From Sphingomonas sp. LaA6.9 (GTDB taxonomy: Bacteria; Pseudomonadota; Alphaproteobacteria; Sphingomonadales; Sphingomonadaceae), in assembly GCF_022601895.1 (NCBI RefSeq), contig NZ_JAKVIO010000037.1:1-40136 (forward strand): a stretch of 40,136 nucleotides of DNA. Reading direction: 5' to 3'. The notes beneath the pieces were generated by a model. It was not told the DNA's origin and did no database searches. It saw nothing but the letters and a program-made list of their open reading frames with translations. A program made the position numbers and the translations under genes. Shown piece after piece: positions 19,331 through 36,743 of this stretch; the first letter of the stretch is position 1, and each line of letters starts with the position of its first letter.

Positions 19331-19358
19331 ATTCATGATTGACAAATGCATTCATTAA
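19331..19358 (+). promoter_or_regulatory. Island operator copy 1 (ATTCAY direct repeat)
   Basis: ATTCAT at 19331 and ATTCATTAA at 19350 are exactly 19 bases apart. This is one of five copies of the same arrangement. It lies between the divergent SnoaL-like gene and the extradiol dioxygenase gene. A TTGACA (19339-19344) lies inside it, so binding could affect a -35 element. Proposed binder: the IclR protein encoded at 35780-36568. Confidence 0.7.
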
Positions 19359-19532
19359 TACGTAAATCCGGCCTCAACAAGGAGAGGGTGACGGGGACGC
19401 GGCGAATTGCGTCTCTTGTCGAGACATCCGGGCAAGCTCTCGCGGGCTTGTGCCCGAGTTCGCCTGGCGCTGCCCGTCGTTCTCTCGTCCGTCGAAACGG
19501 CATTTTGCCCCGTGATAAATGGAGCGAACGGA

Positions 19533-20447
19533 ATGACATTTTCCTTCCGTCACAAGCGGCTCGGATATTTGCTGCTCGAGGTCTCGGACATCGAGCAGTC
19601 GACCCAGTTCGCGACCGACGTGTTCGGGCTCGATCTCGTGACTGAAGACAAGGATGGTGCCCGCTACTTCAGGGCGGGTGCATCGCACCACGACATCATT
19701 CTTGCGCCTGCGCAGCGCCCATCGCTGGCCCGCAGTTCCTGGGAACTGGAAAGTAGCGCTGAGCTCGAAGCCGCCTTTGGACATTTCGAGAGCCGAGGCT
19801 TTCAACCGTTATGGGTCAGCGATGCAGACTGCGCAGCGCTCAAGCTCGACCGTGCCTTCCGGATGATCGATCCGGTCCTGAGTGGAACGTGGGAATTCTT
19901 CGCTGGGATGACGACGATCCCGTCGCCGCGAAAGAATATGCTTACACAGTTTCAGGGCGGCAAGCACTTTGGTCTGTTTGTTCCGGACTGCCCGACAGCG
20001 ACCGACTTTCTCGTCAAAGAGATGGGGTTCCTTGTCTCCGACTATTTCGAGGGCAACCGCCTCTCGCTTCTGCGCGCATGGCCGAACCCCAATCATCACA
20101 GCGTTGCGCTGATCGAGACGCGCAGCAGCATCAAGCGGATGCATCACGTCGCATTCATGGTGAACGAGATCGACGACATCGGGCGGCTGTTCAATCGCGC
20201 ACAGCGCTTTGACGCACAGATCCAGTTCGGCATCGGCCGCCATCCGACGTCCGGAAGCATTCACCTCTACATCTACGGGCCAGACTATTTTGTCTGGGAA
20301 TATACGCTCGGGATGGAACAGTTCCCCGAAGCCGGTGCGCGCGAGGCCCGGCGCATGTCCTCCGCACCGGAAGACTTTGATCTCTGGGGCGCAATTCCCG
20401 ACGCGACCCACAAGGACGAACTCCCAGAACTCAAGGTCGCGCGGTAA
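19533..20447 (+). CDS. Two-domain extradiol ring-cleavage dioxygenase (VOC, type I)
   Basis: A 304-residue vicinal-oxygen-chelate protein with two repeated domains, like 2,3-dihydroxybiphenyl dioxygenase. The predicted Fe(II) ligands are His145 (GGKHFGLFV), His205 (MHHVAFMV) and Glu256 (YFVWEYTLG). Their spacing matches BphC (146, 210, 260), so it should be an active meta-cleavage enzyme acting on a catechol-type ring. GGAG lies eight bases before the ATG at 19533. Upstream in-frame codons are low-complexity and overlap the promoter. It stands as a single gene between two island operators. The substrate is not evident; the matching C-C hydrolase is at 29784. Confidence 0.85.
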   Translation: MTFSFRHKRLGYLLLEVSDIEQSTQFATDVFGLDLVTEDKDGARYFRAGASHHDIILAPAQRPSLARSSWELESSAELEAAFGHFESRGFQPLWVSDADCAALKLDRAFRMIDPVLSGTWEFFAGMTTIPSPRKNMLTQFQGGKHFGLFVPDCPTATDFLVKEMGFLVSDYFEGNRLSLLRAWPNPNHHSVALIETRSSIKRMHHVAFMVNEIDDIGRLFNRAQRFDAQIQFGIGRHPTSGSIHLYIYGPDYFVWEYTLGMEQFPEAGAREARRMSSAPEDFDLWGAIPDATHKDELPELKVAR

Positions 20448-20464
20448 CGACGCCCCCGCTCAAT

Positions 20465-20492
20465 ATTCACTATTGAATGATCCATTCACTAA
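20465..20492 (+). promoter_or_regulatory. Island operator copy 2 (ATTCAY direct repeat)
   Basis: ATTCAC at 20465 and ATTCACTAA at 20484, 19 bases apart, lie 131 bases before the TonB receptor start. The element also contains the dyad TGAATG-ATC-CATTCA. It should control the receptor-SDR-SDR-transporter unit. Confidence 0.7.
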
Positions 20493-20622
20493 GAGTAAAC
20501 GAATGTATATTCCGGCGTCGGCTCTCGTGGCTCGCGAAGGACAAAAATGCTTTTGGCGTCGGGCGTGTTGACCAGGGCCAATCGAGGATCTCGACAACGA
20601 GACGTGCATGGGGAGAGGTTGA

Positions 20623-22845
20623 ATGATGTCGCGAAAGATACTGTCGCCAAAGGGCGTTGCCCTTTTGCTTCCAATCGCCGGGCTGCCTGCAGCGGCGCAG
20701 GCCCAGGCTCAGGCTGAACCGCCTGCGCAGGTGCAGCCGGCAGAGGCCGCACAAGAGGTTCAGCAAACCGAGGCCGAAGGGCCGTCGGACGGCGGCCTGG
20801 CGGAAATCGTGGTCACGGCGCAAAAGCGCGCTGAAAATCTTCAGGACGTTCCCATTGCGGTAACCGCCCTGAGCGCGGACGCGCTTTCCGCCAAAGGGGT
20901 GGGATCGGTCATCGATCTCAACTCGGTGGTGCCCGGACTGTCCTACACAACCCAGGCCGCAGCCGCCTCGCCGCGTATCCGCGGTGTGGGTACCGCCATC
21001 GCGACGGGTGGTAACGAGAATGCGGTCTCGACCTATGTGGACGGTGTCTATTACGCCTCCGCACCCGCGTCGGTCCTCTCACTCAACAACATCGCCCAGA
21101 TTACGGTGCTCAAGGGTCCCCAGGGCACCCTGTTCGGCCGCAACGCAACAGGCGGCCTGATACAGATCACGACGCGCGATCCGGGACAGGATTTCGAAGG
21201 TCAGGCGAAACTGACCTACGGCAATCATGACACCTATGGCGGCGACCTTTATCTCAGTGGCGGCTTGACGACGGGGCTGGCGGCTGACCTCGCCGTCCAC
21301 TATCTGAACCAGAGCGATGGCTTTGGCACCAACCTGTTCAACGGGAAGGACGTCAACAAGTCGCGGGATTTCTCAGTGCGGTCGAAGTGGAAGGCAGAAC
21401 TGGGGAGCGACACGACCGCCACTGTCATCCTTGACTATACCGACTCCAAGTCGATCATTCCGGCCTATCGTCCTGTAACGGGCGTTCTGCCCATCACCGG
21501 CGTCCCCTTCACCGGCGGCAAGTTCGATGTGAACTCGAACGTTCAGCCACATTCCAAGGTCGAGCAATATGGCGGCTCGCTCGAGCTGAGGCATGATTTC
21601 GGCGACGTCGAACTCGTCAGCATCACGGCCTATCGGCATTCCGACTGGGATATCAGGTTCGACTCCGACTCGTTGCCGCAAGATCTGATCAATGCAGATA
21701 TTCTGCAGCTCGACCGGCAGTTCAGTCAGGAGCTGCAGCTTGTCTCGAATGGTTCAGGTCCGTTCAACTGGGTGCTCGGCGCCTATTATTTCAACGCCAG
21801 AGGCGGCTTCGAACCTGGCGTTGTCGCGGGTCCCGGACTCAATTTCGTGTCGACCATCGACACACGCCAGCGCACCAAATCATTCGCCGGCTTTGCTCAG
21901 GGGACCTATCGCTTCACGGATCAGACGTCGCTGACCCTGGGTGTACGCCTGACATCTGAAAAGAAATCGATCGAGGGGTCCGGCGATTTCTTCGTCATCA
22001 ACCCCGGCATTCACGTCCCGCAGGGCCCCTATGAGGCCAGCGACACCGTGACCAAGCCGACCTGGCGTATCGCGCTCGATCACAAATTGACCGACGACGT
22101 CATGATCTATGGGTCGTATAATCGCGGGTTCAAGAGCGGCGGCTTTGATCCGGCGAGCTCCGGCTCGGCTAAATCGTTCAAGCCCGAGGTGCTCGACGCG
22201 TTCGAGATCGGCCTGAAAAGCGAGTTCTTCGATCGGCGCGTGCGGCTCAACGGCGCGGCCTTCTACTACGACTATCGCGACATCCAGCTCAACACGTTCC
22301 AGAACGGCCTGCTAGCCATTTACAATGGCGATTCCGCCAAGATCTACGGTTTGGACCTTGATGCGACGGCGGTGCCGATCGATGGCCTGACACTCACAGC
22401 CGGCGTGTCGCTTCTCCATGGCCGCTATGGCGATTTCCCGATCACGCAGACGGCGCTCCTGCCGAACGGCGGTGTGACCGCGCTGCCGAACATCAGCGCG
22501 GACGGAAAGCGGCTCCAGAATGTCCCCGACTATCAGTTCAATGCCGGGTTCGACTACAAGATACCGCTCGACACGGGCAGCATCAGCCTGGCGGCGGACT
22601 TCTTCCACTCTGGCCGCTGGTACAGCACGCCTGAGAACCGACTGAACCAAAAGGCCTATTCGCTGGTCAACGGATCCATCGCCTGGTTTATTGACACCGA
22701 CGAGAAGTACAGTGTCAGGCTGTGGGGTCGAAATCTCTTCAACGTCGCCTATGCCGACCAGCTGACCACCCAGATTCCGATCACGGACTTTGTGACTATT
22801 GGGCGCGGGCGGACGTTTGGCGCCACGTTGGACATCAAATTCTGA
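20623..22845 (+). CDS. TonB-dependent receptor
   Basis: A 740-residue outer-membrane receptor of the sphingomonad catabolic type. It has an N-terminal signal (LSPKGVALLLPIAGLPAAAQA), a linker rich in Gln/Glu/Ala, a TonB box (EIVVTAQKR), a plug domain with DVPIAVTAL and VLKGPQGTLFGRNATGG, and a barrel ending in GATLDIKF. It probably imports the aromatic substrate of the island or a conjugate of it. GGGAGAGG precedes the start; ATG codons at 20623 and 20626 are both possible. The island operator lies upstream and two SDR genes and a transporter follow on the same strand. The ligand cannot be read from sequence. Confidence 0.9.
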   Translation: MMSRKILSPKGVALLLPIAGLPAAAQAQAQAEPPAQVQPAEAAQEVQQTEAEGPSDGGLAEIVVTAQKRAENLQDVPIAVTALSADALSAKGVGSVIDLNSVVPGLSYTTQAAAASPRIRGVGTAIATGGNENAVSTYVDGVYYASAPASVLSLNNIAQITVLKGPQGTLFGRNATGGLIQITTRDPGQDFEGQAKLTYGNHDTYGGDLYLSGGLTTGLAADLAVHYLNQSDGFGTNLFNGKDVNKSRDFSVRSKWKAELGSDTTATVILDYTDSKSIIPAYRPVTGVLPITGVPFTGGKFDVNSNVQPHSKVEQYGGSLELRHDFGDVELVSITAYRHSDWDIRFDSDSLPQDLINADILQLDRQFSQELQLVSNGSGPFNWVLGAYYFNARGGFEPGVVAGPGLNFVSTIDTRQRTKSFAGFAQGTYRFTDQTSLTLGVRLTSEKKSIEGSGDFFVINPGIHVPQGPYEASDTVTKPTWRIALDHKLTDDVMIYGSYNRGFKSGGFDPASSGSAKSFKPEVLDAFEIGLKSEFFDRRVRLNGAAFYYDYRDIQLNTFQNGLLAIYNGDSAKIYGLDLDATAVPIDGLTLTAGVSLLHGRYGDFPITQTALLPNGGVTALPNISADGKRLQNVPDYQFNAGFDYKIPLDTGSISLAADFFHSGRWYSTPENRLNQKAYSLVNGSIAWFIDTDEKYSVRLWGRNLFNVAYADQLTTQIPITDFVTIGRGRTFGATLDIKF

Positions 22846-22905
22846 ACCCGCTTGGGGGGAGATCATCTCGATCCTCCCCGAAAACCACCAGAACAGGAGT
22901 AAGGC

Positions 22906-23673
22906 GTGGCAAACGGGCGGCTGGCAGGAAAAGTCTGCATCATCACCGGGTCGGGTGGCAGCATGGGTCGGGCAGCCGCTCGGATGTTCGCCGCGCAAGG
23001 CGCACATGTCGTAGGTTGCGACGTCAACGCGCGCTCCGCACAGGAGACATACGAGCTTGTGGTGGCCGAGGGCGGATCGATGGCGTCGCTGCATCCGCTC
23101 GACCTGTCGGATGAGACGGGTGCCCAACGACTGGCCAAGTTCACGCTTGAGCGGTTTGGCAGAATCGACGTCCTCTACAACAATGGCGGCGCGGCGGAAT
23201 TTGCCTGGTTCATGGAAATGACCGCCGCGCAGTGGACGTTCACGCTCAAGCATGAGCTCGACATCATCTTCTTCGCGACCCAGTCTGTGTGGCCGCACAT
23301 GGTCTCAGGCGGCGGCGGGTCGATCATCAACATCGGCTCGGTGTCAGGAAAGCGCGCGTACAAGATGCTGCCCGCTGTGGCTCACGCAGCCGGCAAGGGC
23401 GGTGTTATCGCGATGACCAAGCATCTGGCAATGGAGGGCGGCGCTCACCAGATCCGCGTGAACTCGATTAGCCCTGGCCTCGTGCTGAGCGATGGGACAA
23501 GGCCGCTCCTCGAGGACCCGAACTGGTCTCGCACGATGCTTGACCGGCTCATGCTGGGTCGTCCTGGCGAGCCTGAGGACGTGATTCCGGCAGCAATCTA
23601 TCTGGCCTCGGATGAATCGCGGTGGGTCACCGGCGCCGACTTCGCGATCGACGGCGGCACCATGGCATGGTGA
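22906..23673 (+). CDS. SDR-family protein with His in place of catalytic Tyr
   Basis: A 255-residue SDR with TGSGGSMG at 14-21, NNGG at 92-95, Ser145 (NIGSVSG) and a C-terminal end (VTGADFAIDGGTMAW) typical of classical SDRs. The catalytic motif normally YxxxK reads HAAGK (His160, Lys164). A nearby Tyr152 is not correctly spaced. Activity may therefore be changed, or His may serve as the acid. Translation starts at a GTG (22906) after AGGAG. It is the second gene of the receptor unit, followed after 40 bases by another SDR. It probably acts on a pathway alcohol or dihydrodiol; this is inference. Confidence 0.85.
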   Translation: MANGRLAGKVCIITGSGGSMGRAAARMFAAQGAHVVGCDVNARSAQETYELVVAEGGSMASLHPLDLSDETGAQRLAKFTLERFGRIDVLYNNGGAAEFAWFMEMTAAQWTFTLKHELDIIFFATQSVWPHMVSGGGGSIINIGSVSGKRAYKMLPAVAHAAGKGGVIAMTKHLAMEGGAHQIRVNSISPGLVLSDGTRPLLEDPNWSRTMLDRLMLGRPGEPEDVIPAAIYLASDESRWVTGADFAIDGGTMAW

Positions 23674-23713
23674 TCGCCACCCGACGGACTTTGATTTCGC
23701 TGGAGGAACAGCA

Positions 23714-24457
23714 ATGAACATTGACGGCAAGACAGCGCTGGTCACAGGCGCAGCGGGCGGCATCGGTCGCGCGCTCGTGCTCGAGCTTCTCGACAACGGC
23801 GCCAGCAAGATCATCGCCTGCGACCTCGATCGAAAGCAGCTCAACGATATTGCGGCGCGCGACACGCGCGTCGTGCCGCAAGAGCTGGATGTGACGGATG
23901 AAGCCGAGGTGGCGCGGGTGGCGGCGGCACATGGCGACGTCGACCTCCTCATCAACTGCCACGGCATTGTCGTCCACGAAAACTATCTGGCGGCAGCGAC
24001 GCTCGGCGCCTTTCGCAAGGAAATGGACGTCAACTATTGGGGCCAGCTGCTTTTGTGCCGCGCCTTTGCGCCAGTTGTGAACCGCAATGCCGGCGGCGCA
24101 ATCGTCAACTTCCTCTCGCCGCTTGCCTTCGTGACCTTTCCTTTCTGTGCCGCTTATTGCGCCACCAAGGCCGCCTGTCGCGTGCTTACCGATGCCATGC
24201 GTGCCGAACTTGGCCCGAAGGGCGTACTCGTGATGGCGGTATGCCCGGGCACGATCGATACCGGAATGATGTCCAATCTCGACATTCCCAAAAGCCCTCC
24301 CGAAGGCGTCGCCAAGGCCGTTGTGGAAGGCTTGAGCTCGGATGAAACCGAAGTGTGGGCAGGCGAAGGCGCCCAAGACATGCGCCAGCGCCTGCGCGAC
24401 GATCCCGAGGCGCTTCAGGCCGAAGCCGCAAAATGGCTACGCCTCGAGCAGAATTGA
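23714..24457 (+). CDS. Short-chain dehydrogenase/reductase, 247 aa
   Basis: An SDR with TGAAGGIG at 11-18, Ser135 (FLSPLA), and Tyr148/Lys152 (YCATK). The element usually reading NNAG is NCHG at 80-83. GGAGG precedes the ATG at 23714. It is the third gene of the receptor unit. Unlike the preceding SDR, all catalytic residues are intact, so this one is the better candidate for the dehydrogenase step of the unit. The substrate is unknown. Confidence 0.88.
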   Translation: MNIDGKTALVTGAAGGIGRALVLELLDNGASKIIACDLDRKQLNDIAARDTRVVPQELDVTDEAEVARVAAAHGDVDLLINCHGIVVHENYLAAATLGAFRKEMDVNYWGQLLLCRAFAPVVNRNAGGAIVNFLSPLAFVTFPFCAAYCATKAACRVLTDAMRAELGPKGVLVMAVCPGTIDTGMMSNLDIPKSPPEGVAKAVVEGLSSDETEVWAGEGAQDMRQRLRDDPEALQAEAAKWLRLEQN

Positions 24458-24476
24458 CGCCCTCGAGCCGCGGGCA

Positions 24477-25715
24477 GTGCCCAGGGCCTACTCTTTCAGG
24501 AGCACGAAGCTGAGATCTCCAAGCTCGTCCGCGTCGTCAGTATCGGCCATCCTTGTCTGCGTGCTTGCAAACATGATGGACGGGTTCGATGTGATGGCCG
24601 TCGCCTTTGCCGGCCCTGCGATCGCGCGCGCGTGGACGGTTGACCATGTGACCCTTGGATGGCTCTTTGGTGCCGGTCTCGCCGGAATGACGCTTGGCGC
24701 GCTTTTCCTTGCTCCGCTCGCCGACCGCTTCGGGCGCCGTCCTGTGGCGATCAGCTGCCTTGCGGCCATGGCACTGGCGATGCTGGCTTCCGGCCTCGCC
24801 GCCAATATCGAGCAACTCATCGTCTTGCGGCTCATTACCGGCCTTGGTGTCGGCGGAATCCTCGCCACGCTGAATTCGGTGGTCGCCGAAGCCGCACGCC
24901 CTGAGCGCCGGAATCTCGCGATCAGCATTTTCACCGCGGGTTACCCTTTGGGCTCGATGGCTGGTGGAGCAATGGCGGTTGCCCTGATCGAACATTTCGG
25001 ATGGCAATCGATCTTCTTTATCGGGGGCGCCGGGACCGCCATCGTTTGCCTGCTGCACTGGATCTGGCTGCCCGAAGCCAATTGGGCCGGCATGGGAACC
25101 AAGCTGCCGATGAGCACCTTGTTGAAGGGCGACGCCTTGCCCCGCACATTGCTGATATCCGCCTCGTTCTTCCTTCACATGCTGAGCGTGTTCTTCGTCC
25201 TGAACTGGTCGCCGCGCCTGGTCGAGATGATGGGCTTTTCCGCTCAGATCGGCCTCACGACGACACTCATCATCAATCTTGGAGGGCTGGTCGGTGGTCT
25301 GGCTTACGGCCCTTTGGCCGATTGCTTCGGATGGCGCAGGGTGACCATGGCCTACTTCCTGGCCTTCAGCCCGGCTCTTGCGACCGTCGGAATGGCGCCG
25401 GGCTCGACCCATTTGCTGTTCATCATCGCGGCATGTGTCGGCCTGTTCCAGGGCGGCGCGATGACAAGCCTCTATGCGCTCGCGCCAATCCTCTTTGCGG
25501 ACCCGGTACGCGTAAGCGGCACGGGCCTTGCCATCGGAATTGGTCGTTGCGGCGGAATCCTCGGGCCGATCGCTGCCGGCTATCTCATCGCTGCCGGCTT
25601 GCCGGCCGAAAGCCTTTACCTGATGTGCGCGGCACTGCCCATCGGCGTCGCCATTCTCATTGCTGCACTTCGTCCCACAAATGAAGCCAAAGCGGGCGCT
25701 CGGGCCCTTGCATGA
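24477..25715 (+). CDS. AAHS-type MFS transporter for aromatic acids
   Basis: A 12-helix major facilitator protein of the aromatic acid:H+ symporter group. The helix-1 motif DGFDVMAVAF and the loop motif LADRFGRRPVA are visible. Helical segments run from about residue 23 to near the C-terminus. It should move an aromatic acid or a ring-derived acid across the inner membrane by proton symport. The start is uncertain: there is no ATG between the previous stop and the first helix, so a GTG at 24477 is proposed (412 residues). An AGGAG seven bases before a CTG at about 24511 is a second option. It is last in the receptor unit. Confidence 0.85.
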   Translation: MPRAYSFRSTKLRSPSSSASSVSAILVCVLANMMDGFDVMAVAFAGPAIARAWTVDHVTLGWLFGAGLAGMTLGALFLAPLADRFGRRPVAISCLAAMALAMLASGLAANIEQLIVLRLITGLGVGGILATLNSVVAEAARPERRNLAISIFTAGYPLGSMAGGAMAVALIEHFGWQSIFFIGGAGTAIVCLLHWIWLPEANWAGMGTKLPMSTLLKGDALPRTLLISASFFLHMLSVFFVLNWSPRLVEMMGFSAQIGLTTTLIINLGGLVGGLAYGPLADCFGWRRVTMAYFLAFSPALATVGMAPGSTHLLFIIAACVGLFQGGAMTSLYALAPILFADPVRVSGTGLAIGIGRCGGILGPIAAGYLIAAGLPAESLYLMCAALPIGVAILIAALRPTNEAKAGARALA

Positions 25716-25736: not shown

Positions 25737-26531
25737 CTAGCCGAGATGAAAGCCCGCCCTGCCAAGACCACCGATGTGAACCAAGACATCCATTCCCGGT
25801 GCGATCGGGACCATGGGGCCAAGCGCACCGGTCAGCACGATGTCGCCGGCCTTGAGGGGCTCGCCTCCGGCCACGAGAGCGCGTGCTGCCCATGCAGCGG
25901 CGGCCAGAGGATGCCCCAGGCACGCGGCACCGGCTCCAAGCGACGCGACCTTGCCATTAAGTTCGAGCACCATCCCGCAGCTGAACAGGTCCAGGCCGGT
26001 CAAGGCCTTGCGCTCCTTGCCCAGAACGAAAAAAGCAGACGAAGCATTGTCGGCGATCGTGTCGGCAAGGCTGATTTTCCAGTCCGCGATGCGGCTGTCG
26101 ACGATCTCGATGGCAGCTACCGCACATTCGGCGGCCGCGAGCATGTCCGCCGGGCTCGTCTCCTCGCCCGGCACGTCGCGTCCCAGGATGAGTGCGATCT
26201 CGCCTTCCGCGCGCGGTTGGATCAACCTTCGGGGCGAGAGATCGCCGCCATCCGCGACCCGCATGTCCTCGAACAGTACACCAAGATCGGGCGCCTCCGC
26301 GCCGAGCTGCCTCTGAATCGCCTCACCGGTCAGACCGACCTTGCGGCCAACAATGCGGCGCCCCTGGGTTTTCCAGAACGCCGTATTGGCATCCTGGATA
26401 GCGTATGCGGCCGCCACATCGTTCGGATGCAGGCCGTCGCGCAGCGGTGATATCGCCTCGCGTTCATAGGCATCACGCAGACGCCTGGCCAAAGCCTGGT
26501 GATCAGCGTTCAAGGGCAGCGCCTCACGCAT
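25737..26531 (-). CDS. 2-oxopent-4-enoate hydratase family protein
   Basis: A 264-residue member of the MhpD/XylJ/DmpE hydratase family (FAH superfamily). It should add water to 2-hydroxypenta-2,4-dienoate to give 4-hydroxy-2-oxovalerate after meta-cleavage. Family stretches are YAIQDANTAFWKTQGRRIVG, KVGLT, QPRAEGEIALILGRD (metal-binding Glu pair), AIEIVDSRIADWK and DIVLTGALGPMVPI. The start overlaps the end of the aldehyde dehydrogenase gene by eight bases, so they are co-translated. It converges with the transporter gene 21 bases away. A close relative, the decarboxylase DmpH/XylI type, cannot be excluded. Confidence 0.85.
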   Translation of the reverse strand: MREALPLNADHQALARRLRDAYEREAISPLRDGLHPNDVAAAYAIQDANTAFWKTQGRRIVGRKVGLTGEAIQRQLGAEAPDLGVLFEDMRVADGGDLSPRRLIQPRAEGEIALILGRDVPGEETSPADMLAAAECAVAAIEIVDSRIADWKISLADTIADNASSAFFVLGKERKALTGLDLFSCGMVLELNGKVASLGAGAACLGHPLAAAAWAARALVAGGEPLKAGDIVLTGALGPMVPIAPGMDVLVHIGGLGRAGFHLG

Positions 26532-27969
26532 AGCTGTAGGCCGTCTTCGTCTGTGTATAGAACTCGATCGCGGCAAAGCCCTGTTCACGCGCGCCGAAGC
26601 TCGACCTGCCCATACCGCCAAAGGGCACATGATAATCCACGCCGGCCGTGGGCAGATTGGTCATCACCATCCCTGCACGAACAGCTTTCTGGAAGTGACG
26701 GGCAAATTTGAGCGAGGACGTCACGATTCCCGCCGAAAGGCCAAAGTCCCCGGCATTTGCCGTGGCAAGGGCCTCGTCATAGTCCTTCACCCTGATCACG
26801 CTCGCCACTGGACCAAAGACTTCGAGCCGGTTGATCTCCATTTCCATCGCGGTCTCGCCAATCAACGCGGGTTCGACATACCAACCGGGATGGTCGCGCG
26901 TGATACGCGCGCCTCCCGCGACCAGGACACCCCCCTCGCCTTGCGCCCGCGCGATGAAGGCATAGCTCTGCTCCTGCTGGGCCTGGCTGGCGGCTGGGCC
27001 GATCTGCGTATCCGCCGAAAGCGCGTGCCCTACGCGTAGATTTCGCATCCTCTCAGCCATGGCGGCGATGAATTTGTCATGCACGCCCTCGGCAACGATC
27101 AAGCGGCTCGACGCTGTGCAGCGCTGCCCGGTACCGAAGAAAGCGCCATCAATCGCAACCGCGACGGCCCGGTCGAGGTCAGCATCGTCAAGGATCACCA
27201 GAGGGTTCTTGCCGCCCATTTCCAGCTGGAACCGAGCCTGCCGAGCCGCCGCGGCACTTGCCACCTGCAAGCCCACCGACTGCGAGCCGGTGAACGAAAC
27301 GCCGTCGATTCCGGGGTGCCGAACCAACGCGTCCCCGATCGACCCGGGCCCTATGACGAGGTTGAAAACACCCGAGGGGACCCCGGATTCAACCATGATC
27401 TCGGCGAGCGCGACCGCGATGGCGGGTGTAAGGCTCGCGGGTTTCATGACCACGGCATTTCCAAAGGCAAGGGCCGGCGCCGATTTCCACGCCGGGATGG
27501 CGATCGGGAAGTTCCAGGGTGTGATGAGCCCGATAACGCCCACCGCCTGGCGATAGGTCTGGATTTCGACACCCGGCCGCACGGAATCCAGATTCTGGCC
27601 ATGTCGCCGCAACGCCTCGCCAGCAAAATATTTAAAGATCCTCGCTGCACGCGAGACTTCGCCGATACCCTCAGCAAGCGTCTTGCCCTCTTCCCTGCTC
27701 AGCAATCGACCGAGCATGGGCGCGCGCGAAAGAAGGGTAGAGCCAATCCGGTCAAGGCAGTCAGCGCGCACCTCGGGCGATGCGGCCGCCCATGACGGGA
27801 ACGCGGCGCGCGCCGCGGACACGGCGTCTTCAAGATCGGCGAGAACACCGATTGGAGCGCGGGCCACCGTTTCGTCTGTGTCAGACGGATTGAAACGAGG
27901 CTGTCTCGCTTCGGACTTTCTCCACTCCCCCGCAATGAGATGCCGGAGATCGAGTATTCCTTCACCCAT
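26524..27969 (-). CDS. NAD(P)-dependent aldehyde dehydrogenase
   Basis: A 481-residue ALDH. Catalytic elements are complete: ITPWNFP with Asn153, FTGS at 226-229, general base Glu250 (LEMGGKN), nucleophile Cys284 (GQRCTAS) and EVFGPVAS. The overall pattern, including DDADLDRAVAVAIDGAFFGT, is closest to alpha-ketoglutarate-semialdehyde and related dehydrogenases rather than 2-hydroxymuconic-semialdehyde dehydrogenases; this is a judgement from memory. GGAG precedes the ATG at 27969. It is the middle gene of a leftward unit, SnoaL-like to ALDH to hydratase. It may oxidise an aldehyde released from the ring-cleavage product. Confidence 0.88.
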   Translation of the reverse strand: MGEGILDLRHLIAGEWRKSEARQPRFNPSDTDETVARAPIGVLADLEDAVSAARAAFPSWAAASPEVRADCLDRIGSTLLSRAPMLGRLLSREEGKTLAEGIGEVSRAARIFKYFAGEALRRHGQNLDSVRPGVEIQTYRQAVGVIGLITPWNFPIAIPAWKSAPALAFGNAVVMKPASLTPAIAVALAEIMVESGVPSGVFNLVIGPGSIGDALVRHPGIDGVSFTGSQSVGLQVASAAAARQARFQLEMGGKNPLVILDDADLDRAVAVAIDGAFFGTGQRCTASSRLIVAEGVHDKFIAAMAERMRNLRVGHALSADTQIGPAASQAQQEQSYAFIARAQGEGGVLVAGGARITRDHPGWYVEPALIGETAMEMEINRLEVFGPVASVIRVKDYDEALATANAGDFGLSAGIVTSSLKFARHFQKAVRAGMVMTNLPTAGVDYHVPFGGMGRSSFGAREQGFAAIEFYTQTKTAYSYA

Positions 27970-28726: not shown

Positions 28727-28754
28727 ATTCACTATTCATGGTTGCATTCACTAT
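28727..28754 (+). promoter_or_regulatory. Island operator copy 3 (ATTCAY direct repeat)
   Basis: ATTCAC at 28727 and ATTCACTAT at 28746, 19 bases apart, with ATTCATGGTTGC between them. This is the best-conserved copy: its centre ATGGTTGC is shared with copy 4. It sits between the divergent SnoaL-like gene and the FAH-family gene, 120 bases before the latter. Confidence 0.75.
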
Positions 28755-28874
28755 ATGAGAACGCTACACACTCATCATGAAGAAGGCAACCATCCCCGAA
28801 CGTCAAATGATCGCCACACGATCAGGCGCCCTCGCCCGGCACGAAACCGACCTCGCATCGACAGGGAATCCACA

Positions 28875-29735
28875 ATGAAGTTGGTCAGCTTCAAGTCGCG
28901 CGCGACCACGGGCTATGGCGCCCTCGTTAATGGCGAGGTCGCAGTCCTCTCGGCACAGTTACCATTTCCGACGCTCAAAACCGCATTGCCCCACCTCGAC
29001 GAATTGCGTCGCGCCGTGGACAGCGCGCCGACACGCCTGGCGCTGTCGCAGCTGGAGCTGCTGCCCCCCATTCCCGATCCGGGCCGGATCATGTGCGTTG
29101 GCCGCAACTTCAAGAAGGCGATGCACCAGATGGGGCTCGACTTTCTGGAATACCCGGTCCTCTTCGCCCGCTTTCCACACTCAGTAGTCGGCCATGGCGA
29201 GGAAATTGTCAGGCCGACAGTGTCGGAACAGTTCGACTATGAAGGCGAACTCGCGGTCGTCATCGGACGAGCAGGACGTCATATTCGCGCCGAAGACGCG
29301 CTTGACCATGTTGCCGGCTATTGCTGCTTCAACGACGGCTCAATTCGCGACTATCAGCGGCACACGTCTCAGGACACGCCGGGCAAGAACTTCTGGCGTA
29401 GCGGTGCTGCCGGGCCATGGCTGACAACCGCTGACGAAATTGCTGATCCGACACGGCTCACGCTCACCACCAGGGTCAACGAAAAAATCGTGCAGCAGGC
29501 AACGCTCGACGACCTGCTCTTCGACGTCCCGCACGTAATCTCCTATCTCTCCGGCATCTACCCGCTGCAGCCCGGCGACATGATTGCGATGGGCACGCCG
29601 CTTGGCGTGGGCCTGAATGCAGACCCGCCGCGGTGGCTCAAGCCGGGCGACACAGTCAGCGTGGAAATCGACGGCATCGGAACACTGAGCAATCGCGTCG
29701 TGGACGAGGCCGGTCTCGATCTCGCTGCCGCCTGA
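28875..29735 (+). CDS. Fumarylacetoacetate hydrolase family protein
   Basis: A 286-residue FAH-fold enzyme. Metal ligands typical of the family are Glu123, Glu125 (FDYEGELAVVIG) and Asp154 (FNDGSIRDYQ). GRNFKKAM and MGTPLGVGL are further family motifs. The family contains acylpyruvate hydrolases, 2-hydroxyhepta-2,4-diene-1,7-dioate isomerases and lyases acting on 2-oxo-acid products of ring cleavage. AGGGA precedes the ATG at 28875. It is followed after 48 bases by the C-C hydrolase gene, forming a two-gene unit that ends at a clear terminator. A second, longer FAH protein lies at 34381. Confidence 0.88.
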   Translation: MKLVSFKSRATTGYGALVNGEVAVLSAQLPFPTLKTALPHLDELRRAVDSAPTRLALSQLELLPPIPDPGRIMCVGRNFKKAMHQMGLDFLEYPVLFARFPHSVVGHGEEIVRPTVSEQFDYEGELAVVIGRAGRHIRAEDALDHVAGYCCFNDGSIRDYQRHTSQDTPGKNFWRSGAAGPWLTTADEIADPTRLTLTTRVNEKIVQQATLDDLLFDVPHVISYLSGIYPLQPGDMIAMGTPLGVGLNADPPRWLKPGDTVSVEIDGIGTLSNRVVDEAGLDLAAA

Positions 29736-29783
29736 CCCAACCTCAATCACAAGAAAACCAGCAACAGATCCAGGAGAGATGAA

Positions 29784-30629
29784 ATGCAACAAGCGGTTGA
29801 CACCAGAATGCCTGAAATCGGGCAGTCGATCGAAGCCATGGGCCTGCAGACCAATTACCACGATGTCGGCACGGGCTCGCCGGTTGTCCTGATCCATGGC
29901 TCGGGGCCAGGCGTGAGCGCCTGGGCGAACTGGCGCCTTTCAATTCCGGAGCTCGCCCGGCATTCGCGCGTCATTGCTTATGATGTCGCCGGGTTTGGGT
30001 TCACCGAGCTCGATCCGAGCGCCAACTACACCATGGACTATTGGCTGACGCATCTCGTCTCGTTCCTGGATGCGATGGGCCTCAAAAAGGTCTCGTTTGT
30101 CGGAAATTCTTTCGGCGGAACGCTCGCTGCCCATTTCGCAGCGCGCTATCCCGAACGCACCTCGCGCCTGGCGATGATGGGCGCGAATATCCTGGCGCAC
30201 CCCATTACGCCCGCGCTCGATAATCTCGGCTGGGGATATGAACCCTCCGTGGAGATAATGCGCGAGCTGCTGAACACCTTTCCGTACAACAAGGCCCTGA
30301 TCACCGAGGCGCTTGTCGAGAACCGCTACAATGCCAGTACGCGTCCCGATTACCATAAGGCCTTCCGCGCGATGTTCCCGGCCCCCCGGCAGAACGTCGT
30401 GAATGCGATGGCGCTGAGCGAAGAACTGCTCGGCAGCATCCAGTGTGAAACACTGCTCATTCACGGTCGTGAAGATGCCTTTGTTCCTCTGGAAGTCAGC
30501 TTCCGGGCACAGGCGATCGTCCCGCGCGCGCAGCTCCATGTCTTTGGCCAATGTGGTCATTGGGTTCAGATCGAACGCGCGCGCGAATTCTGCGCTTTGC
30601 TGGAAACATTCCTCACCGGCGAGGAATGA
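29784..30629 (+). CDS. Meta-cleavage-product C-C hydrolase
   Basis: A 281-residue alpha/beta hydrolase of the DmpD/TodF/CumD/BphD group, which hydrolyses the C-C bond of the yellow extradiol cleavage product to 2-hydroxypenta-2,4-dienoate and an acid. Key motifs: HGSGPGVSAWANW from 38, nucleophile Ser109 (GNSFGG), Asp231 (GREDAFVP) and His259 (GQCGHWVQIE). The GPGVSAWANWR pattern is a group signature. AGGAGAG precedes the ATG at 29784. It is downstream of a FAH gene and upstream of a U-tract terminator. It pairs functionally with the extradiol dioxygenase at 19533 and the hydratase at 25737. Confidence 0.9.
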   Translation: MQQAVDTRMPEIGQSIEAMGLQTNYHDVGTGSPVVLIHGSGPGVSAWANWRLSIPELARHSRVIAYDVAGFGFTELDPSANYTMDYWLTHLVSFLDAMGLKKVSFVGNSFGGTLAAHFAARYPERTSRLAMMGANILAHPITPALDNLGWGYEPSVEIMRELLNTFPYNKALITEALVENRYNASTRPDYHKAFRAMFPAPRQNVVNAMALSEELLGSIQCETLLIHGREDAFVPLEVSFRAQAIVPRAQLHVFGQCGHWVQIERAREFCALLETFLTGEE

Positions 30630-30773: not shown

Positions 30774-32000
30774 CTAGGCGGTCAGGTCCTTCAACGGCCA
30801 CGTGATATCGGCCAGCTTCGCCTTGTCGGGCGACAACCGCCCGGTCACGAGCCTGCGCCCCTGCACATAGTCCCTGGTCGCATTGACGCAGTCGAGCGCC
30901 ACCACGCGCCCGTGCTTCAAGTAAATGACCGAGAAGGAGCGCTTCTCAGGATCGCCGCGGACAAGACATTCGTCGTGATCGATCGAAAGTCCGACGGTCT
31001 GGAGCCGAAGATCATATTGGTTGGACCAGAACCACGGCACCGCATGATAGGGCTGCGCATCGCCAAGGATCGCCTTGGCGACAACATTCGCCTGGTCAAT
31101 CGCATTCTGCACCGATTCGAGCCGGATGCGGGCACCGTCCGCGAAATCGTTCGCATGCGCTGCGCAGTCGCCGATCGCATAGATATCGGCGAGCGAAGTC
31201 TTGCAAAAGGGATCGACATCGACGCCGTTGCTCCCTGCGGCGCCTGCCGCGATTAGTGGCTCCACCGCGGGGATGATGCCGATGCCGATGATCACCATCT
31301 GCGCCCGGATCACTTCACCGCCTTGAATATGGACGCCGGAGACGCGGCCGCCCTCACCCGTGAATCCCACCGAACACGCGCCCAGCCGCACCTCCACGCC
31401 CTGCGCGCGGTGTTCAGCCTCGTAGAAGCGCGACAACGGCTCGCCCGCGACGCGCGCGAGCACACGCGGCAGCGCCTCCAGAACGGTCACTTTCTTGCCG
31501 AGCTTGTTGAGCACCGCCGCTGTCTCGAGCCCGATATAGCCGCCGCCAATCACCACGACGTCGCTGACCGTGTCGAGCTCTGCCATCATGCTGTCGGCGT
31601 CCGCCCTGGTGCGGACCACATGGAGGCCCTTCAGATCCGCACCCGCGCAATCGAGCCGGCGTGGACGCCCACCCGTTGCCCAGACGAGTTTGCCATAGCT
31701 GATCGCCTCACCGCTCGAGAGCACGACCTGTTTTGCTGACGGATCGACCTCGGCCACACGCTTTCCCGTCAACAGTTCGACCTTGCGGTCGGCCCAGAAT
31801 ACGGCAGGACGGATCAAGGTCCGCCCAAACGGCTTCTCGCCCGCAAGATATTCCTTGGATAGTGGCGGACGCTCATAAGGGATTTCGGGTTCATCGCCGA
31901 TGATCGCGACACTTCCTTCAAAGCCGTGTTGGCGCAGGCTGATCGCGATTTGCGCGCCCCCATGGCCCGCGCCAATAACGAGCACGTCAAATCTGGTCAT
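30774..32000 (-). CDS. Ferredoxin/rubredoxin NAD(+) reductase (BphA4-like)
   Basis: A 408-residue FAD protein that passes electrons from NADH to a ferredoxin for a Rieske oxygenase or P450. The FAD-binding GAGHGG is at 10-15, [12 protein letters not shown] at about 41-52, the NAD site IGGGYIGLE at 151-159 and the second FAD motif DIYAIGDCA at 272-280. It is the last gene of a leftward unit that begins at the FAH gene at 35337. Its likely partner is the 2Fe-2S ferredoxin at 36812, in the same regulon. No terminal oxygenase is present in this window. Confidence 0.9.
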
Positions 32001-32050
32001 GGCTTCGCCTCATCTGTGAAACAGGTCTCGCCGCGGTCCGGGGCGCGGCC

Positions 32051-32869
32051 TTATGCCAGGATGCGAGCTTTGCGGAGGTCGCCTGCTATGCGCGTTATTT
32101 GCGCCTCACCCTCCCGCAGCGAGTCCGCACTGGTGTGCACGGAATGATTGCCCAGGTGCAGCTCATGGGGATGCTTCACCGCTGAACCCAGGACAAAGCC
32201 AACTCCTTCCTCGCTGGTGATCGAAATCGCGCCGTTGCCTTCTTCGAAGATCAGGAGTTCACCGGTCGACGCCGGTTCGGTGCATTCCAGACTGCCGGAG
32301 TATACGGCCAGCCAGGCCACCTCATGGCCATCAGGCATTAGATAGTCCCAGCGCTCTCCGGGCTTCAGCCGAACGTCGAGATAGTTGATGCCCGCCGGAG
32401 CATCGATGGGACTGGCAGCAGAACCGAGTCGGCCGAGCAGAATCCTTGCGGGCCCTTGGTGGGGCACATCTTCGGCATCAAGATAGCGGCTCTCCGGCGC
32501 GCCCATTTCGCGTTCGGGCGGCAAGGCGACCCATAGCTGAAAACCACGAACTGGCTTTCCACCCGATGGTGCCCCCGTGTGCCAGACGCCCGAGCCCGCT
32601 GCCATCCATTCGACGCCCCCCGCTGCGAGCTGCCCCTTCACGCCCGTGGTTTCCTGATAGTCAACCTTGCCTTCCAGAATGAGGGTAACCGTGGCTATTC
32701 CTGAATGCGGGTGCCAGCGCATCGCGCCTTCAGGACCAGCGGGAATCTCGGCAAGGTCGAGAAATACGAACGGCTTGATGAGTTCGCCAAGGTCCGAGGG
32801 GCTGACCAGCCGCGTGATTGGTCCGCGCCTTGCCCCGCACGTGCGCGTGCGAATGTTGCGGGCCATCAT
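32051..32869 (-). CDS. Pirin-family cupin protein
   Basis: A 272-residue bicupin of the pirin family; some members show quercetin 2,3-dioxygenase activity. The N-terminal cupin has RWHPHSGIATVTLILEG with His53 and His55, and His97 in SGVWHTGAPS. In well-studied pirins the last ligand is Glu two residues after that His (H-x-E); here the position is Gly, so the metal site appears altered. The ATG at 32869 overlaps the TGA of the VOC gene (ATGA), giving translational coupling. It is the fourth gene of the FAH-SDR-VOC-pirin-reductase unit. The function in the pathway is unknown. Confidence 0.85.
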   Translation of the reverse strand: MMARNIRTRTCGARRGPITRLVSPSDLGELIKPFVFLDLAEIPAGPEGAMRWHPHSGIATVTLILEGKVDYQETTGVKGQLAAGGVEWMAAGSGVWHTGAPSGGKPVRGFQLWVALPPEREMGAPESRYLDAEDVPHQGPARILLGRLGSAASPIDAPAGINYLDVRLKPGERWDYLMPDGHEVAWLAVYSGSLECTEPASTGELLIFEEGNGAISITSEEGVGFVLGSAVKHPHELHLGNHSVHTSADSLREGEAQITRIAGDLRKARILA

Positions 32870-33360
32870 TTCGCCGCGTCGGTGGTGCCTGGAAACATTT
32901 CGCGGACATCCTTCACCGGGCCGGATTTGAGGTATCGCTCGAAGCGTTGCGTATAGCCGCCTTCGGGATTCGCCAGGATCTCCCACCAGTTGGCGTCGCG
33001 ATCGCGGAAATAGAAGGCATAGACGTCGTGCTGCAAAATGGGCCTGGTGATGGCCTTGAGCTGGAATTCTTCCTTATGCTCCACACAAAGCGCATGCGCG
33101 CGGTCGACGTCCTCCTTGGTCGCAACGTCGATGCCGTTGTGGTTGGTATAGGGCATGGGCTTACCCTTCGGGCCCTGCACCACGACATAGATGTGGTTTC
33201 CGCCAAGCCGGACCATGCCGGAGATCGGGCTGGTACGGACGAACTCGAACCCGAGAAACCGCTCATAGAATTCGATCGACTTGTCGATGTCATGAACTTC
33301 CAGCGTTCCGTGCGAAAGAAATTTAAGATCAAGAATTGGCTTGGGCTTGGTGTCGGACAT
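32866..33360 (-). CDS. Single-domain VOC (glyoxalase/extradiol-like) protein
   Basis: A 164-residue vicinal-oxygen-chelate protein. Candidate metal ligands are His17 (FLSHGTLEV), His74 (YTNHNGID), His111 (LQHDVYAFYF) and Glu127 (ANWWEIL). GGGAGG precedes the ATG at 33360. It overlaps the pirin gene by four bases. Single-domain VOC proteins include small extradiol dioxygenases, isomerases and binding proteins. In a ring-cleavage island a second dioxygenase or a semialdehyde-handling role is plausible, but sequence alone does not decide. Confidence 0.8.
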   Translation of the reverse strand: MSDTKPKPILDLKFLSHGTLEVHDIDKSIEFYERFLGFEFVRTSPISGMVRLGGNHIYVVVQGPKGKPMPYTNHNGIDVATKEDVDRAHALCVEHKEEFQLKAITRPILQHDVYAFYFRDRDANWWEILANPEGGYTQRFERYLKSGPVKDVREMFPGTTDAAK

Positions 33361-33411
33361 GGCAACCTCCCGGATTTGTCTTGATTGGCACATTATTCTG
33401 CGAGCGATCGT

Positions 33412-34158
33412 CTACCAGGGCAGCCTTGTTCCATCATGCGAGATGAACGAGCCGGTGCTGGCGAGATCGCTCGCCTCGATGGCCTTGATCATGTTGGCGA
33501 CGCTGGTTTCAGGCGTGAACATGCCGTCCTCGCCGCCCATTTCGGTTTTCACCCACCCCGGATTGACCGACAGGACAATCACGCCGCGTGCCTTCAGATC
33601 CGCGGCCAGGTTTCGAGCAATCATGTTGAGGGCGGCCTTTGTGGTGCGGTAGATATAAACGCCGCCGCCAGGCGGGAACGCATCCGGATCGCTCGCAGTG
33701 ATGCTTCCCATGATGCTGGAAATCATGACGATCTTCTTGACGGTACTCGCAAGCACGTTCGACAGAAGAGCCTCCGTGACACGCATCGGCCCGATCACGT
33801 TGACGTGGAACACCTGGCCCCAACCTTCATAGTCGATAGCCCCAAGCGCCTGCAGCGAAGATCTCGCGCCTTCGGAGAAGCTCACCGGTCGGTTGTCCAG
33901 AATGCCCGCATTATTGATCAACAGGTCGACCGGCACGCCGCCGAGGCGACTTGCCAGCGCGTCGACTGTGCTAAAATCGTCGATGTCGAGGGCATGCACC
34001 GTGAAGCGATCGGCCGCAGCATTCGCCAGTTCGGCCAGTTCGCCTGCCTGATCAGGCGATCGACAGCAGGCATGGACATGCCAGCCTTGCACTGAAAACT
34101 GCCGCGCAAACTCAAGGCCCAGGCCCCTGTTGGCTCCGGTGATCAGGACTGTCGCCAT
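33412..34158 (-). CDS. Short-chain dehydrogenase, C-factor-like
   Basis: A 248-residue SDR of the C-factor/sniffer-like group: TGANRGLG at 7-14, NNAG at 82-85, Ser147-Ser148 (MISSIMGS) and Tyr170/Lys174 (YRTTK), then VNPGWVKTEMGG. AGGAAA precedes the ATG at 34158. It is the second gene of the unit starting at 35337 and lies 222 bases after the FAH gene. A pathway carbonyl or alcohol is the likely substrate; nothing more specific can be read. Confidence 0.85.
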   Translation of the reverse strand: MATVLITGANRGLGLEFARQFSVQGWHVHACCRSPDQAGELAELANAAADRFTVHALDIDDFSTVDALASRLGGVPVDLLINNAGILDNRPVSFSEGARSSLQALGAIDYEGWGQVFHVNVIGPMRVTEALLSNVLASTVKKIVMISSIMGSITASDPDAFPPGGGVYIYRTTKAALNMIARNLAADLKARGVIVLSVNPGWVKTEMGGEDGMFTPETSVANMIKAIEASDLASTGSFISHDGTRLPW

Positions 34159-34380
34159 CGATTTTCCTATTGTTCCTTGCGGACGCGCGTGCGTGGTTGG
34201 GCATCGGATTGGTCGGGGGCGCCGACCTTGGGCGGGTTTGCAAGTCGGACGGAGACGTCGCGTCGCAACCCCGAGCGCGCAGCAGTGACAGGCCCCCTGG
34301 CCTGATCTTGCGCGGAATTTCGAACGTGCGTGCGGGTCGTCAGAAAATCGATCAGGTCAAAGGCGTCCCTGAGCAGCATG

Positions 34381-35337
34381 TTACTGCGAACGCTTCAGCA
34401 CATTGGACAATGTGCCCAGCCCCGTGATGGTAACCTCGACGGTATCGCCTTCCTTTAGGAAAACCGGCGGCTTCTTCGCTGCACCAACGCCGCCCGGCGT
34501 GCCTGTCGAAATGATGTCGCCAGGCACCAGCGCGTACCAGTAGGAAACATAGGAAACATAATGGGCGACGCTGAAGATCAGGTCATCCGTTCCTACGTCC
34601 TGGACGATTTCGCCGTTGACCCTGGTCGTCATACGCAACGCGTGCGGATCAGGAATTTCATCCGTGGTTACAAGATAGGGTCCGATTGGTGACAAGGTGG
34701 GATGCTGTTTGGCAGCAACATTGCGCCCCCAGGCGTCAAGCATTGCGGTGGGAACCGTCACCGCCTTCACCTCGGCGACATGGTCGCGTGCCGAAACGTC
34801 ATTGTGGACGGTATAGCCCGCAACATGGTTCAGCGCCTCCTCGACACTTACCGCATAGCAGGGTTTGCCGATTACGACGGCAAGTTCACCTTCATAGTCG
34901 AGCATCGTCGCCTGGTGGGGCGGCATGATCACGGGCTGGCGGTGGCCGCCGAGCGACCCAGCCGAGCAGAGAAACAGGATCGGGTGCGCGGGAACCGGAA
35001 CCCCGCCCATTTCCTCGAGATGCTGATGGTAGGAAGCGCCACATCCCATGAAATGCAAGGGATCAGAGACCGGCGCCGAAAACTGCGCGCCCGTCTCCGA
35101 CAAGAGCGCACCCATCGAACGGAGCTCTTCAGGGCTCGCCCCCTTGCCTGCCTCGAAATCGGTGACAACGGCGCGCAGCTGCTCGAGCCCGTCCGCTTGC
35201 GCCAATATGCCCTTCACCGTTGAGGGCAGCGCGCTGGCCGGGCCTGCGGGAATCAGCGACGGCACGAGCAGTTCCGCCTCACCTACCAGAACTGCTGCGC
35301 GAATTTGCGTGCCCAACACGATACTCGCAATTTTCAT
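34381..35337 (-). CDS. Fumarylacetoacetate hydrolase family protein (long form)
   Basis: A 318-residue FAH-fold enzyme. Ligands are Glu149, Glu151 (LDYEGELAVVIG) and Asp180 (VHNDVSARD); STGTPGGVGAA is a further motif. An extra N-terminal domain of about 90 residues distinguishes it from the shorter FAH protein at 28875. The ATG at 35337 follows GGAGAG; a TTG directly before it is not needed. It is first in the leftward unit FAH-SDR-VOC-pirin-ferredoxin reductase, 53 bases from the fourth island operator. The two FAH proteins probably handle different 2-oxo acid intermediates. Confidence 0.88.
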   Translation of the reverse strand: MKIASIVLGTQIRAAVLVGEAELLVPSLIPAGPASALPSTVKGILAQADGLEQLRAVVTDFEAGKGASPEELRSMGALLSETGAQFSAPVSDPLHFMGCGASYHQHLEEMGGVPVPAHPILFLCSAGSLGGHRQPVIMPPHQATMLDYEGELAVVIGKPCYAVSVEEALNHVAGYTVHNDVSARDHVAEVKAVTVPTAMLDAWGRNVAAKQHPTLSPIGPYLVTTDEIPDPHALRMTTRVNGEIVQDVGTDDLIFSVAHYVSYVSYWYALVPGDIISTGTPGGVGAAKKPPVFLKEGDTVEVTITGLGTLSNVLKRSQ

Positions 35338-35389
35338 CAATCGCTCTCCAGCACGTTCTATCGATTTGTCGCCACCCTACAATTCCACA

Positions 35390-35417
35390 TTAATATATGC
35401 AACCATCAATGGTGAAT
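35390..35417 (-). promoter_or_regulatory. Island operator copy 4 (ATTCAY direct repeat, minus strand)
   Basis: Read on the minus strand, ATTCACC begins at 35417 and ATATATTAA at 35398, again 19 bases apart, with ATTGATGGTTGC between. The second half-site deviates (ATATAT for ATTCAY). It points towards the FAH gene, starting 53 bases downstream, as the other copies point towards their catabolic genes. Confidence 0.65.
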
Positions 35418-35779
35418 TTCAAAAGGTCGACGTTGCCCTTCGGTTGATCGCCGCAAACTCACCCTTCTTCGGAACATCTGCGCAGACCGGCAACGACTTG
35501 GCATCCAGCCAGGCGCTCGCACGCGCGCGCGCTTTTTCGATCCCTGCGCTGGTGTTATCAGGTTGTCTTCGGACCGCCGCAGTCCCGGGGACGGATGTGA
35601 CCCATTTTTCCGCGCAGCGATTCGCGCCTGCCGCGTTGCTTGCGCCCACCTCAGCAGGGCGACGCGGCGCAAAAACTGGTCGGCAACCAGACAGCGGACG
35701 TCATCGCCCCCTCTCCCCCGGCCAGCAACAGATCCCACAAAGCGCAAAGCAGGCGTTCGACTGCCGAGGCCAGCAAAGA
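35418..35779. other. Intergenic, nothing recognised
   Basis: Between the fourth operator and the end of the IclR gene no protein-like frame, clear hairpin or repeat was found. Short minus-strand frames here (for example one ending KKGEFAAINRRATSTF) start at GTG without a ribosome binding site and match no family. Confidence 0.4.
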
Positions 35780-36568
35780 TCAGCCTTCAGTCAGTCCGTA
35801 TCCAAGCTCATAGGAAATCCGGCGCGCGGTTTCCTCCACGGCAGATATGACTTTCGCACTGCCCCGCCCCCGCAAGGCTTCGTGCGAAGCCAGCAGGCAG
35901 ATAACCGACGACAGATTTTCCTGCGCGTCAAAGACGGGCGCCGCGACTGCGTCGACACCGGCAATCAGGGCCGACGACAAGTGGACGGTTCTGGCGGCGC
36001 GGACTTCTTCCAGTTCGCGGTCCGAAAGCGATGGGGCGCCTGCATCCGCGCTGGCCATCTGCTTTTGTCGTTTGAGGACCGGCTGCGTCACCACGGGCGG
36101 CATATGCGCGAGGAACAAGCGACCAATTGCAGACTCGGTCAAGGGCATCGAACTGCCGACTCGCAGGTTCACCATCAGCGGGGCCGATCCATTTTCCCAG
36201 CGCACGAGGACAGGCCCTGAGTCACCCCAAATCGTAAGACAGACGGTATGCCCGGTCGTGTCCCGCAATAAGAGGAGGTGTTTGCTGGCGATCGCGAACG
36301 AATCCAGGCGCCCCATCGCTACAAGACCAAGGCGCCGGGCCGTTGGACCAAGATCGTAAAGACCATTTGGTCCGAACTGAATCAGCATGCCGCTGCGCAC
36401 GAAGCTGACAAGGTATCGATGGACTTTGCTGGGCGCCATGCCTGACGCTTCGCAAACCTGCTTGAGCGACATTGCCGAAGTGCTGCCCGCAAAAACGTCG
36501 AGCACCTTGATGCCGATTTCTACGGACTGAATTCCGGCTGACTGGGTTTTGCTGACACTCTCGACCAC
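35780..36568 (-). CDS. IclR-family transcriptional regulator
   Basis: A 262-residue IclR protein. The winged helix-turn-helix occupies about 15-75 (IKVLDVFAG, then SLKQVCEASGMAPSKVHRYL). The ligand-binding domain follows (LLRDTTGHTVCLTIWGDSG, then SAIGRLFLAHMPP and AVAAPVFDAQENLSSVICLLA). Translation starts at a GTG (36568) after AGGGAA. It diverges from the ferredoxin gene across the fifth operator copy, so autoregulation is likely. It is the only IclR protein here and lies inside the island, which makes it the best candidate to bind the five ATTCAY elements. Whether it activates or represses is unknown. Confidence 0.92.
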   Translation of the reverse strand: MVESVSKTQSAGIQSVEIGIKVLDVFAGSTSAMSLKQVCEASGMAPSKVHRYLVSFVRSGMLIQFGPNGLYDLGPTARRLGLVAMGRLDSFAIASKHLLLLRDTTGHTVCLTIWGDSGPVLVRWENGSAPLMVNLRVGSSMPLTESAIGRLFLAHMPPVVTQPVLKRQKQMASADAGAPSLSDRELEEVRAARTVHLSSALIAGVDAVAAPVFDAQENLSSVICLLASHEALRGRGSAKVISAVEETARRISYELGYGLTEG

Positions 36569-36715
36569 TGAATTTCCCTGATTGTTGGGGACGCTTCAAA
36601 TTGCGCATAGTTGCTAACACTTGATCGAAACTAGCGGACGATCACGGACGGGCAAGTGGCCTTTTCACGTGGCACTGCGACCTCCCTGCACCAGCCATTT
36701 ACCAACCCTTCTTAT

Positions 36716-36743
36716 ATTCACCAATATATATTGCATTCATAAT
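36716..36743 (+). promoter_or_regulatory. Island operator copy 5 (ATTCAY direct repeat)
   Basis: ATTCACCAA at 36716 and ATTCATAAT at 36735, 19 bases apart, lie between the divergent IclR and ferredoxin genes. An overlapping perfect dyad CATTCAT-AATAG-ATGAATG (36734-36752) extends to the right. The ferredoxin start is 69 bases downstream. Confidence 0.7.

Follow-up and report, generated by a model that had tools for sequence, protein, structure and literature searches.

A tandem, quasi-palindromic element as the predicted operator of an IclR-family regulator in a meta-cleavage island of Sphingomonas sp. LaA6.9

The closest described counterparts of the element reported here are operators of IclR-family regulators. 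A comparative survey of this family (Suvorova and Gelfand, 2021; PMC8222616) predicts tandem sites in 94 orthologous groups, their centres separated by 18-22 nt, predicts three-box sites in 32 groups, and distinguishes a WTT-11-AAW subgroup. PheR of Sphingobium sp. SHPJ-2 is an IclR-family regulator of aromatic catabolism with a 44-bp protected region; the data given for it are consistent with cooperative binding, and TonB and receptor genes are raised in the deletion mutant (PMC13273656). Our search of the open-access literature, judged by title and the start of the abstract, found no description of the present island or its regulator in sphingomonads.

We analyzed a 40,136-bp stretch of DNA (the window), of which about 17.6-40.0 kb is taken up by a catabolic island; because the window is a whole contig, the island may extend further. 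Its gene content (Table 1) suggests that a substituted catechol undergoes meta-cleavage. The best PDB match of the meta-cleavage-product hydrolase is 2-hydroxy-6-oxo-7-methylocta-2,4-dienoate hydrolase, further island products include an FMN-dependent dehydrogenase and a D-lactate-dehydrogenase-like protein, and the left SnoaL-like protein scores 24.5 bits, below the cut-off of 27. The regulator carries both IclR-family domains (PF09339, 47.3 bits against a cut-off of 22; PF01614, 64.9 bits against a cut-off of 24), and its PDB matches include IclR-family chains; on the model of the PcaR/PcaU/PobR subfamily (NCBIfam TIGR02431) it reaches 66 bits, where the cut-off is 284.75. Elsewhere in the window (3374-6388, minus strand), three ORFs resembling SDR dehydrogenases by eye lie outside the proposed regulon and have no element.

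Table 1. Putative operator copies and island genes, in window coordinates
Feature	Position	Strand	Remarks
Putative operator copy 1	19331..19366	+	between SnoaL-like gene (minus) and extradiol dioxygenase (plus); exact match; dioxygenase-promoter sites in G127 and G380
Putative operator copy 2	20465..20500	+	gap between dioxygenase and TonB receptor; pattern match
Putative operator copy 3	28727..28762	+	between SnoaL_2-ALDH-hydratase (minus) and FAH1-alpha/beta hydrolase (plus); pattern match
Putative operator copy 4	35382..35417	-	upstream of FAH2-SDR-VOC-pirin-ferredoxin reductase; 2 mismatches
Putative operator copy 5	36716..36751	+	between iclR (minus) and ferredoxin-AtaL gene (plus); pattern match
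BphC/HpaD-like extradiol dioxygenase	19533..20447	+	
TonB-dependent receptor	20623..22845	+	
Two SDR dehydrogenases and MFS transporter	22906..25715	+	
2-oxopent-4-enoate-hydratase-like protein, aldehyde dehydrogenase, SnoaL_2 protein	25737..28575	-	
FAH1 and meta-cleavage-product hydrolase	28869..30629	+	
Ferredoxin reductase, pirin, VOC protein, SDR, FAH2	30774..35337	-	
IclR-family regulator, proposed binder	35780..36568	-	PF09339 and PF01614
2Fe-2S ferredoxin and AtaL-domain protein	36812..37645	+	
TetR-like protein	37660..38274		

The initial annotation of this DNA had described five copies of an ATTCAY-N13-ATTCAY element, and both their positions and their 19-bp register are correct in all five. 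That every copy holds two ATTCAY halves is true of four; in copy 4 the first half is ATTCAC and the second has decayed to ATATAT. A whole-genome pattern search found exact ATTCAY-N13-ATTCAY four times in 4.39 Mb, every time within the window (4 forward, 0 reverse; reversed-pattern control, 0). Allowing up to 3 mismatches, the 27-bp pattern ATTCAYNATTNANNNWTGCATTCAYTA matched the genome at the same five sites (with 0, 0, 1, 2 and 3 mismatches) and its control at none; because the pattern was built from these sites, their own match is by construction, and the informative part is that there are no further matches. The earlier remark that other gene starts lack a copy thus holds genome-wide at this stringency. 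Within the window, a loose 25-mer at up to 3 mismatches was found 47 times against 62.25 expected, showing no enrichment. Because this loose search lies at chance level, the weight of the case is carried by exactness and genome-wide rarity.

All five sites fall between likely gene starts. From the first base of the element (position 0) to the likely start, the distance is 202 nt for the dioxygenase, 158-161 nt for the receptor, 142 nt for FAH1 (whose start was taken from translation only), 80 nt for FAH2 and 96 nt for the ferredoxin. Mechanical ORFs with earlier starts overlap copy 1 or copy 3 (18824-19351 and 28108-28728, both minus; 28446-29735, plus), and later starts were adopted for the genes whose ORFs enter these two sites.

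We then looked for the regulator in other genomes. Scoring up to 6 candidates in each of 396 other genomes of the family, we identified an IclR orthologue above 50% identity in two of them, G380 (69%) and G127 (58%). A search of 396 genomes of the order at E <=1e-50 returned the genome's own protein and that of G127 only (2 matches), a search of 367 genomes of the class at E <=1e-55 returned its own only (1 match), and no orthologue was found at E <=1e-55 in 12 other genus-mates of G127 or 13 of G380; the family, order and class sets were sampled from larger groups, so more orthologues may exist. In both G380 and G127 the iclR gene sits in a syntenic related island that carries the element, and the three proteins have the same helix-turn-helix stretch, MAPSKVHRYL, with nearly identical surroundings. 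Across the 397 family genomes, own genome included, the 27-bp pattern (up to 3 mismatches) gave 18 matches in 12 genomes, none in the other 385, and 1 match with its reversed control. Nine of the 18 belong to the LaA6.9 genome and the two with an orthologue above 50% identity (G380 and G127); the other nine occur singly in nine further genomes, all at 3 mismatches.

A PWM covering positions 0-29 and built from the five window sites found three sites in G380 (scores in descending order, 26.9, 20.9 and 19.4) and five in G127 (37.9, 36.3, 30.5, 21.9 and 12.8). Listed by place rather than by score, those of G380 are at the dioxygenase, FAH2 and the iclR/AtaL gap, and those of G127 in the iclR/ferredoxin gap, at FAH2, at the dioxygenase, in the SnoaL_2/hydrolase gap and at a SnoaL_4 gene, with opposite-strand matches at one site merged into one. 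Seven of these eight lie at orthologous promoters or gaps, which brings the collection to 13 sites over three genomes; the SnoaL_4 site is without an orthologous site in the window. A G127 site at 34607 of the joined stretch corresponds to copy 3; copy 4 has counterparts upstream of FAH2 in G380 and, weakly, in G127, and copy 5 in the iclR divergent gap of both genomes; for the gap that holds copy 2, no counterpart site was found in either. Shuffling each stretch five times gave top scores of 5.6-8.7 for G380 and of 12.1, 12.7, 13.1, 13.5 and 17.0 for G127. The FAH2 site of G127, at 12.8, is below the best match in three of the five shuffles and was kept on account of its place, and two extra matches in G380 (9.5 at 12325 and 9.2 at 14801), slightly above the best shuffle of 8.7, were left out of the count. 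Of the two regulators among the 24 window proteins compared, IclR and a TetR-like protein, IclR alone has counterparts in both other islands, in a comparison that started from the window proteins.

Two neighbors of these related islands may be recorded here. In G127, beyond the ferredoxin, a large protein with POR, TPP-binding and DUF6537 domains (L037 13149-16583, minus) resembles 2-oxoacid:ferredoxin oxidoreductase and is a possible ferredoxin partner. In G380, the conserved island has at its side a second and distant IclR gene (24%) with another FAH-family gene adjoining it (L035 12418-13296 and 13398-14240).

The dioxygenase was found in 19 genomes at E <=1e-40, six of which (own included) encode a protein at least 57% identical. 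Three of the six carry this IclR and the motif, and among the genomes searched only these three have the IclR/element system. The others (G011, G036 and G212; dioxygenase 57-60%) have no close IclR orthologue and no match to the 27-bp pattern at 3 mismatches. Using a PWM made from the 13 sites, which themselves score 34.9-51.9 on it, we found no match of at least 8 in the 36.5-37 kb around the dioxygenase in G011 and G036; in G212 the best match over the same span scores 13.1 against 9.1 for its best shuffle. Plasmid relatives of the dioxygenase, 180 records, are all below 60% identity, the best among the matches listed being 38.4%. Because the motif accompanies a close IclR orthologue and not the dioxygenase alone, IclR is its probable binder.

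Across the 13 sites, conservation extends from position -2 to about 36, a block of ~36-38 bp, and most flanking columns are near 0 bits (position 59, at 0.84, is an exception). T1, T2, C3, T20, A23, A26, A33 and A34 are invariant, the last two lying outside both the motif first described and the five-site PWM used for site finding. The initial annotation had called the operator tandem rather than palindromic, an opposition that these sites do not bear out. They are most symmetric as an inverted repeat about position 17.5 (4.96; next-best centre, 2.55), and this coexists with a direct repeat at 19, the best offset among 5-31 (4.61; next, 3.54 at offset 7); the right-hand inverted box, with A33 and A34 in 13/13 sites, had been missed. 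In permutations of the columns, which leave the relatedness of the 13 sites in place, neither the palindrome score (4.89; permuted mean 1.06, sd 0.87) nor the direct-repeat score (4.86; permuted mean 0.88, sd 0.87) was reached in any of 20,000. Overall, the element combines a 36-bp quasi-palindrome with a 19-bp direct repeat; individual sites are imperfect, with 6 to 13 of 20 possible pairs complementary. A three-box, PcaU-like reading was dropped for a four-box one after symmetry and offset scoring of the 13 sites.

The element may be read as four boxes of alternating direction: A (0-7, ATTCAYyA), M (9-16, weak), B (19-26, ATTCAYTA) and C (28-35), which ends GAAT-like with the invariant AA. 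A/M and B/C would then be two 17-bp pseudo-palindromes with centres 19 bp apart, an offset within the 18-22 bp of tandem IclR operators. Set against WTT-11-AAW, boxes B/C have T20 and the AA at 33-34 in 13/13 sites and T21 in 11/13, and boxes A/M lack a conserved AA at 14-15. The IclR group 1 core YCRY...RYGR does not appear, since position 4 is A (12/13) where C is expected and position 5 is C/T where the core has R. Promoter-like columns are present at T16 (12/13), G17 (11/13), T38 (8/13) and A39 (10/13).

Judged from these patterns, the five elements are very probably operators of the IclR protein, each bound by two dimers (a tetramer) and likely serving repression. Genome-wide rarity, retention of the sites at orthologous promoters of two other genera, and the lack of convincing sites around the three dioxygenase orthologues without a close IclR support the original proposal of a single regulon with IclR as binder. 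Pseudo-palindromes with centres 19 bp apart most likely seat the two dimers side by side on one DNA face. Overlap of the operator with the promoter is possible (TTG-like at 15-17, TA at 38-39), although the -35/-10 assignments are weak, and such an overlap suggests repression by blocking RNA polymerase. Binding of a substrate or ring-cleavage intermediate to the C-terminal domain of IclR would then relieve this repression. The regulon, with operons of presumed extent, would span uptake (receptor, MFS), ring cleavage, hydrolysis, FAH and aldehyde steps and electron transfer, and probably includes iclR itself, because all three genomes have a site in the gap between iclR and its divergent neighbor.

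Tentatively, IclR could instead bind the element and mainly activate, in the manner of PcaU and PobR, with box A upstream and contact to RNA polymerase at the -35 region. All 13 sites, read on their better-scoring strand, face a gene of catabolic or SnoaL type, conservation is highest in the direct-repeat boxes A and B, and PcaU needs an external direct half-site for binding (PMC8222616). However, conservation continues beyond the presumed -35 and into the -35/-10 spacer, ending near position 36, and this favors steric repression as far as the weak promoter assignment allows. We consider it rather doubtful that the four-box operator is orientation-dependent, with the direct-repeat boxes giving specificity, the inner box decayed, and a tetramer reading head-to-tail so that only one of two divergent promoters is controlled. 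Binding by a different protein, whether the TetR-like one or one encoded elsewhere, seems improbable: the TetR-like gene does belong to the island, but its product has no match at E <=1e-5 in the 38- and 39-kb stretches of the G380 and G127 islands, and the motif tracks IclR rather than the dioxygenase and has an IclR-typical layout. There is very little to recommend reading the element as a motif of the core promoter or of a sigma factor, or as a dispersed repeat, with no regulator of its own; possible promoter overlap would suit this reading, but five copies in the genome, a 36-bp two-fold symmetry and absence from 385 of 397 family genomes argue against it. Chance likeness of AT-rich intergenic DNA, to which the loose 25-mer count would be congenial, is contradicted by the exact copies, by the genome and family pattern searches and by recurrence at orthologous promoters in other genera, and can be set aside.

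More distant paralogues of IclR offer a further, suggestive comparison. In named genomes, a single-protein query for IclR relatives had 0/139 candidate stretches confirmed, and an alignment query gave nine IclR loci, one in Sphingomonas sp. Root710 and the other eight 36-41% identical. Run on 35 distant-paralogue loci, a symmetrised PWM had its best match above all 20 shuffles in 10 (L008, L016, L022, L027, L059, L060, L061, L062, L064 and L065), with identical best matches at L061 and L062; this is suggestive only of homologous operators there. Near-palindromic 36-bp blocks occur near paralogous IclR genes (about 36-39%) at L059 10770-10805, L064 9226-9261 and L061/L062 7651-7686, some of them in aromatic-degradation-like loci, for example in Novosphingobium naphthalenivorans, and are possibly operators of like general layout.

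With IclR as the predicted repressor, a meta-cleavage island in sphingomonads gains a probable regulator, operator and target list, and its inducer, as well as biosensor use, become testable. A clean footprint conserved across three genera also shows how a pattern read as tandem can be a tandem pair of pseudo-palindromes. The local IclR regulon appears to be new; the operator is probably largely family-typical, and its layout has already been described, as a prediction, in PMC8222616. As in the tandem palindromic operators of that survey, two pseudo-palindromes stand 19 bp centre-to-centre, the regulator lies beside its targets and B/C fits the WTT-11-AAW spacing; by contrast, the present sequence is of CAY type instead of the YCRY core, and its left palindrome is degenerate, so that the direct repeat dominates. 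It shares with the three-box operators of PcaU, PobR and HmgR the combination of a palindrome and a further, directly oriented half-site, but its half-site differs from that of PcaU (GTTCG-type; PMC8222616), and the protein itself falls far under the cut-off for PcaR/PcaU/PobR. Like PheR, it is an IclR-family regulator of aromatic catabolism in a sphingomonad, whereas the essential core of PheR is GCAACG and its 44-bp sequence, compared by eye, has no evident likeness to the element (PMC13273656).
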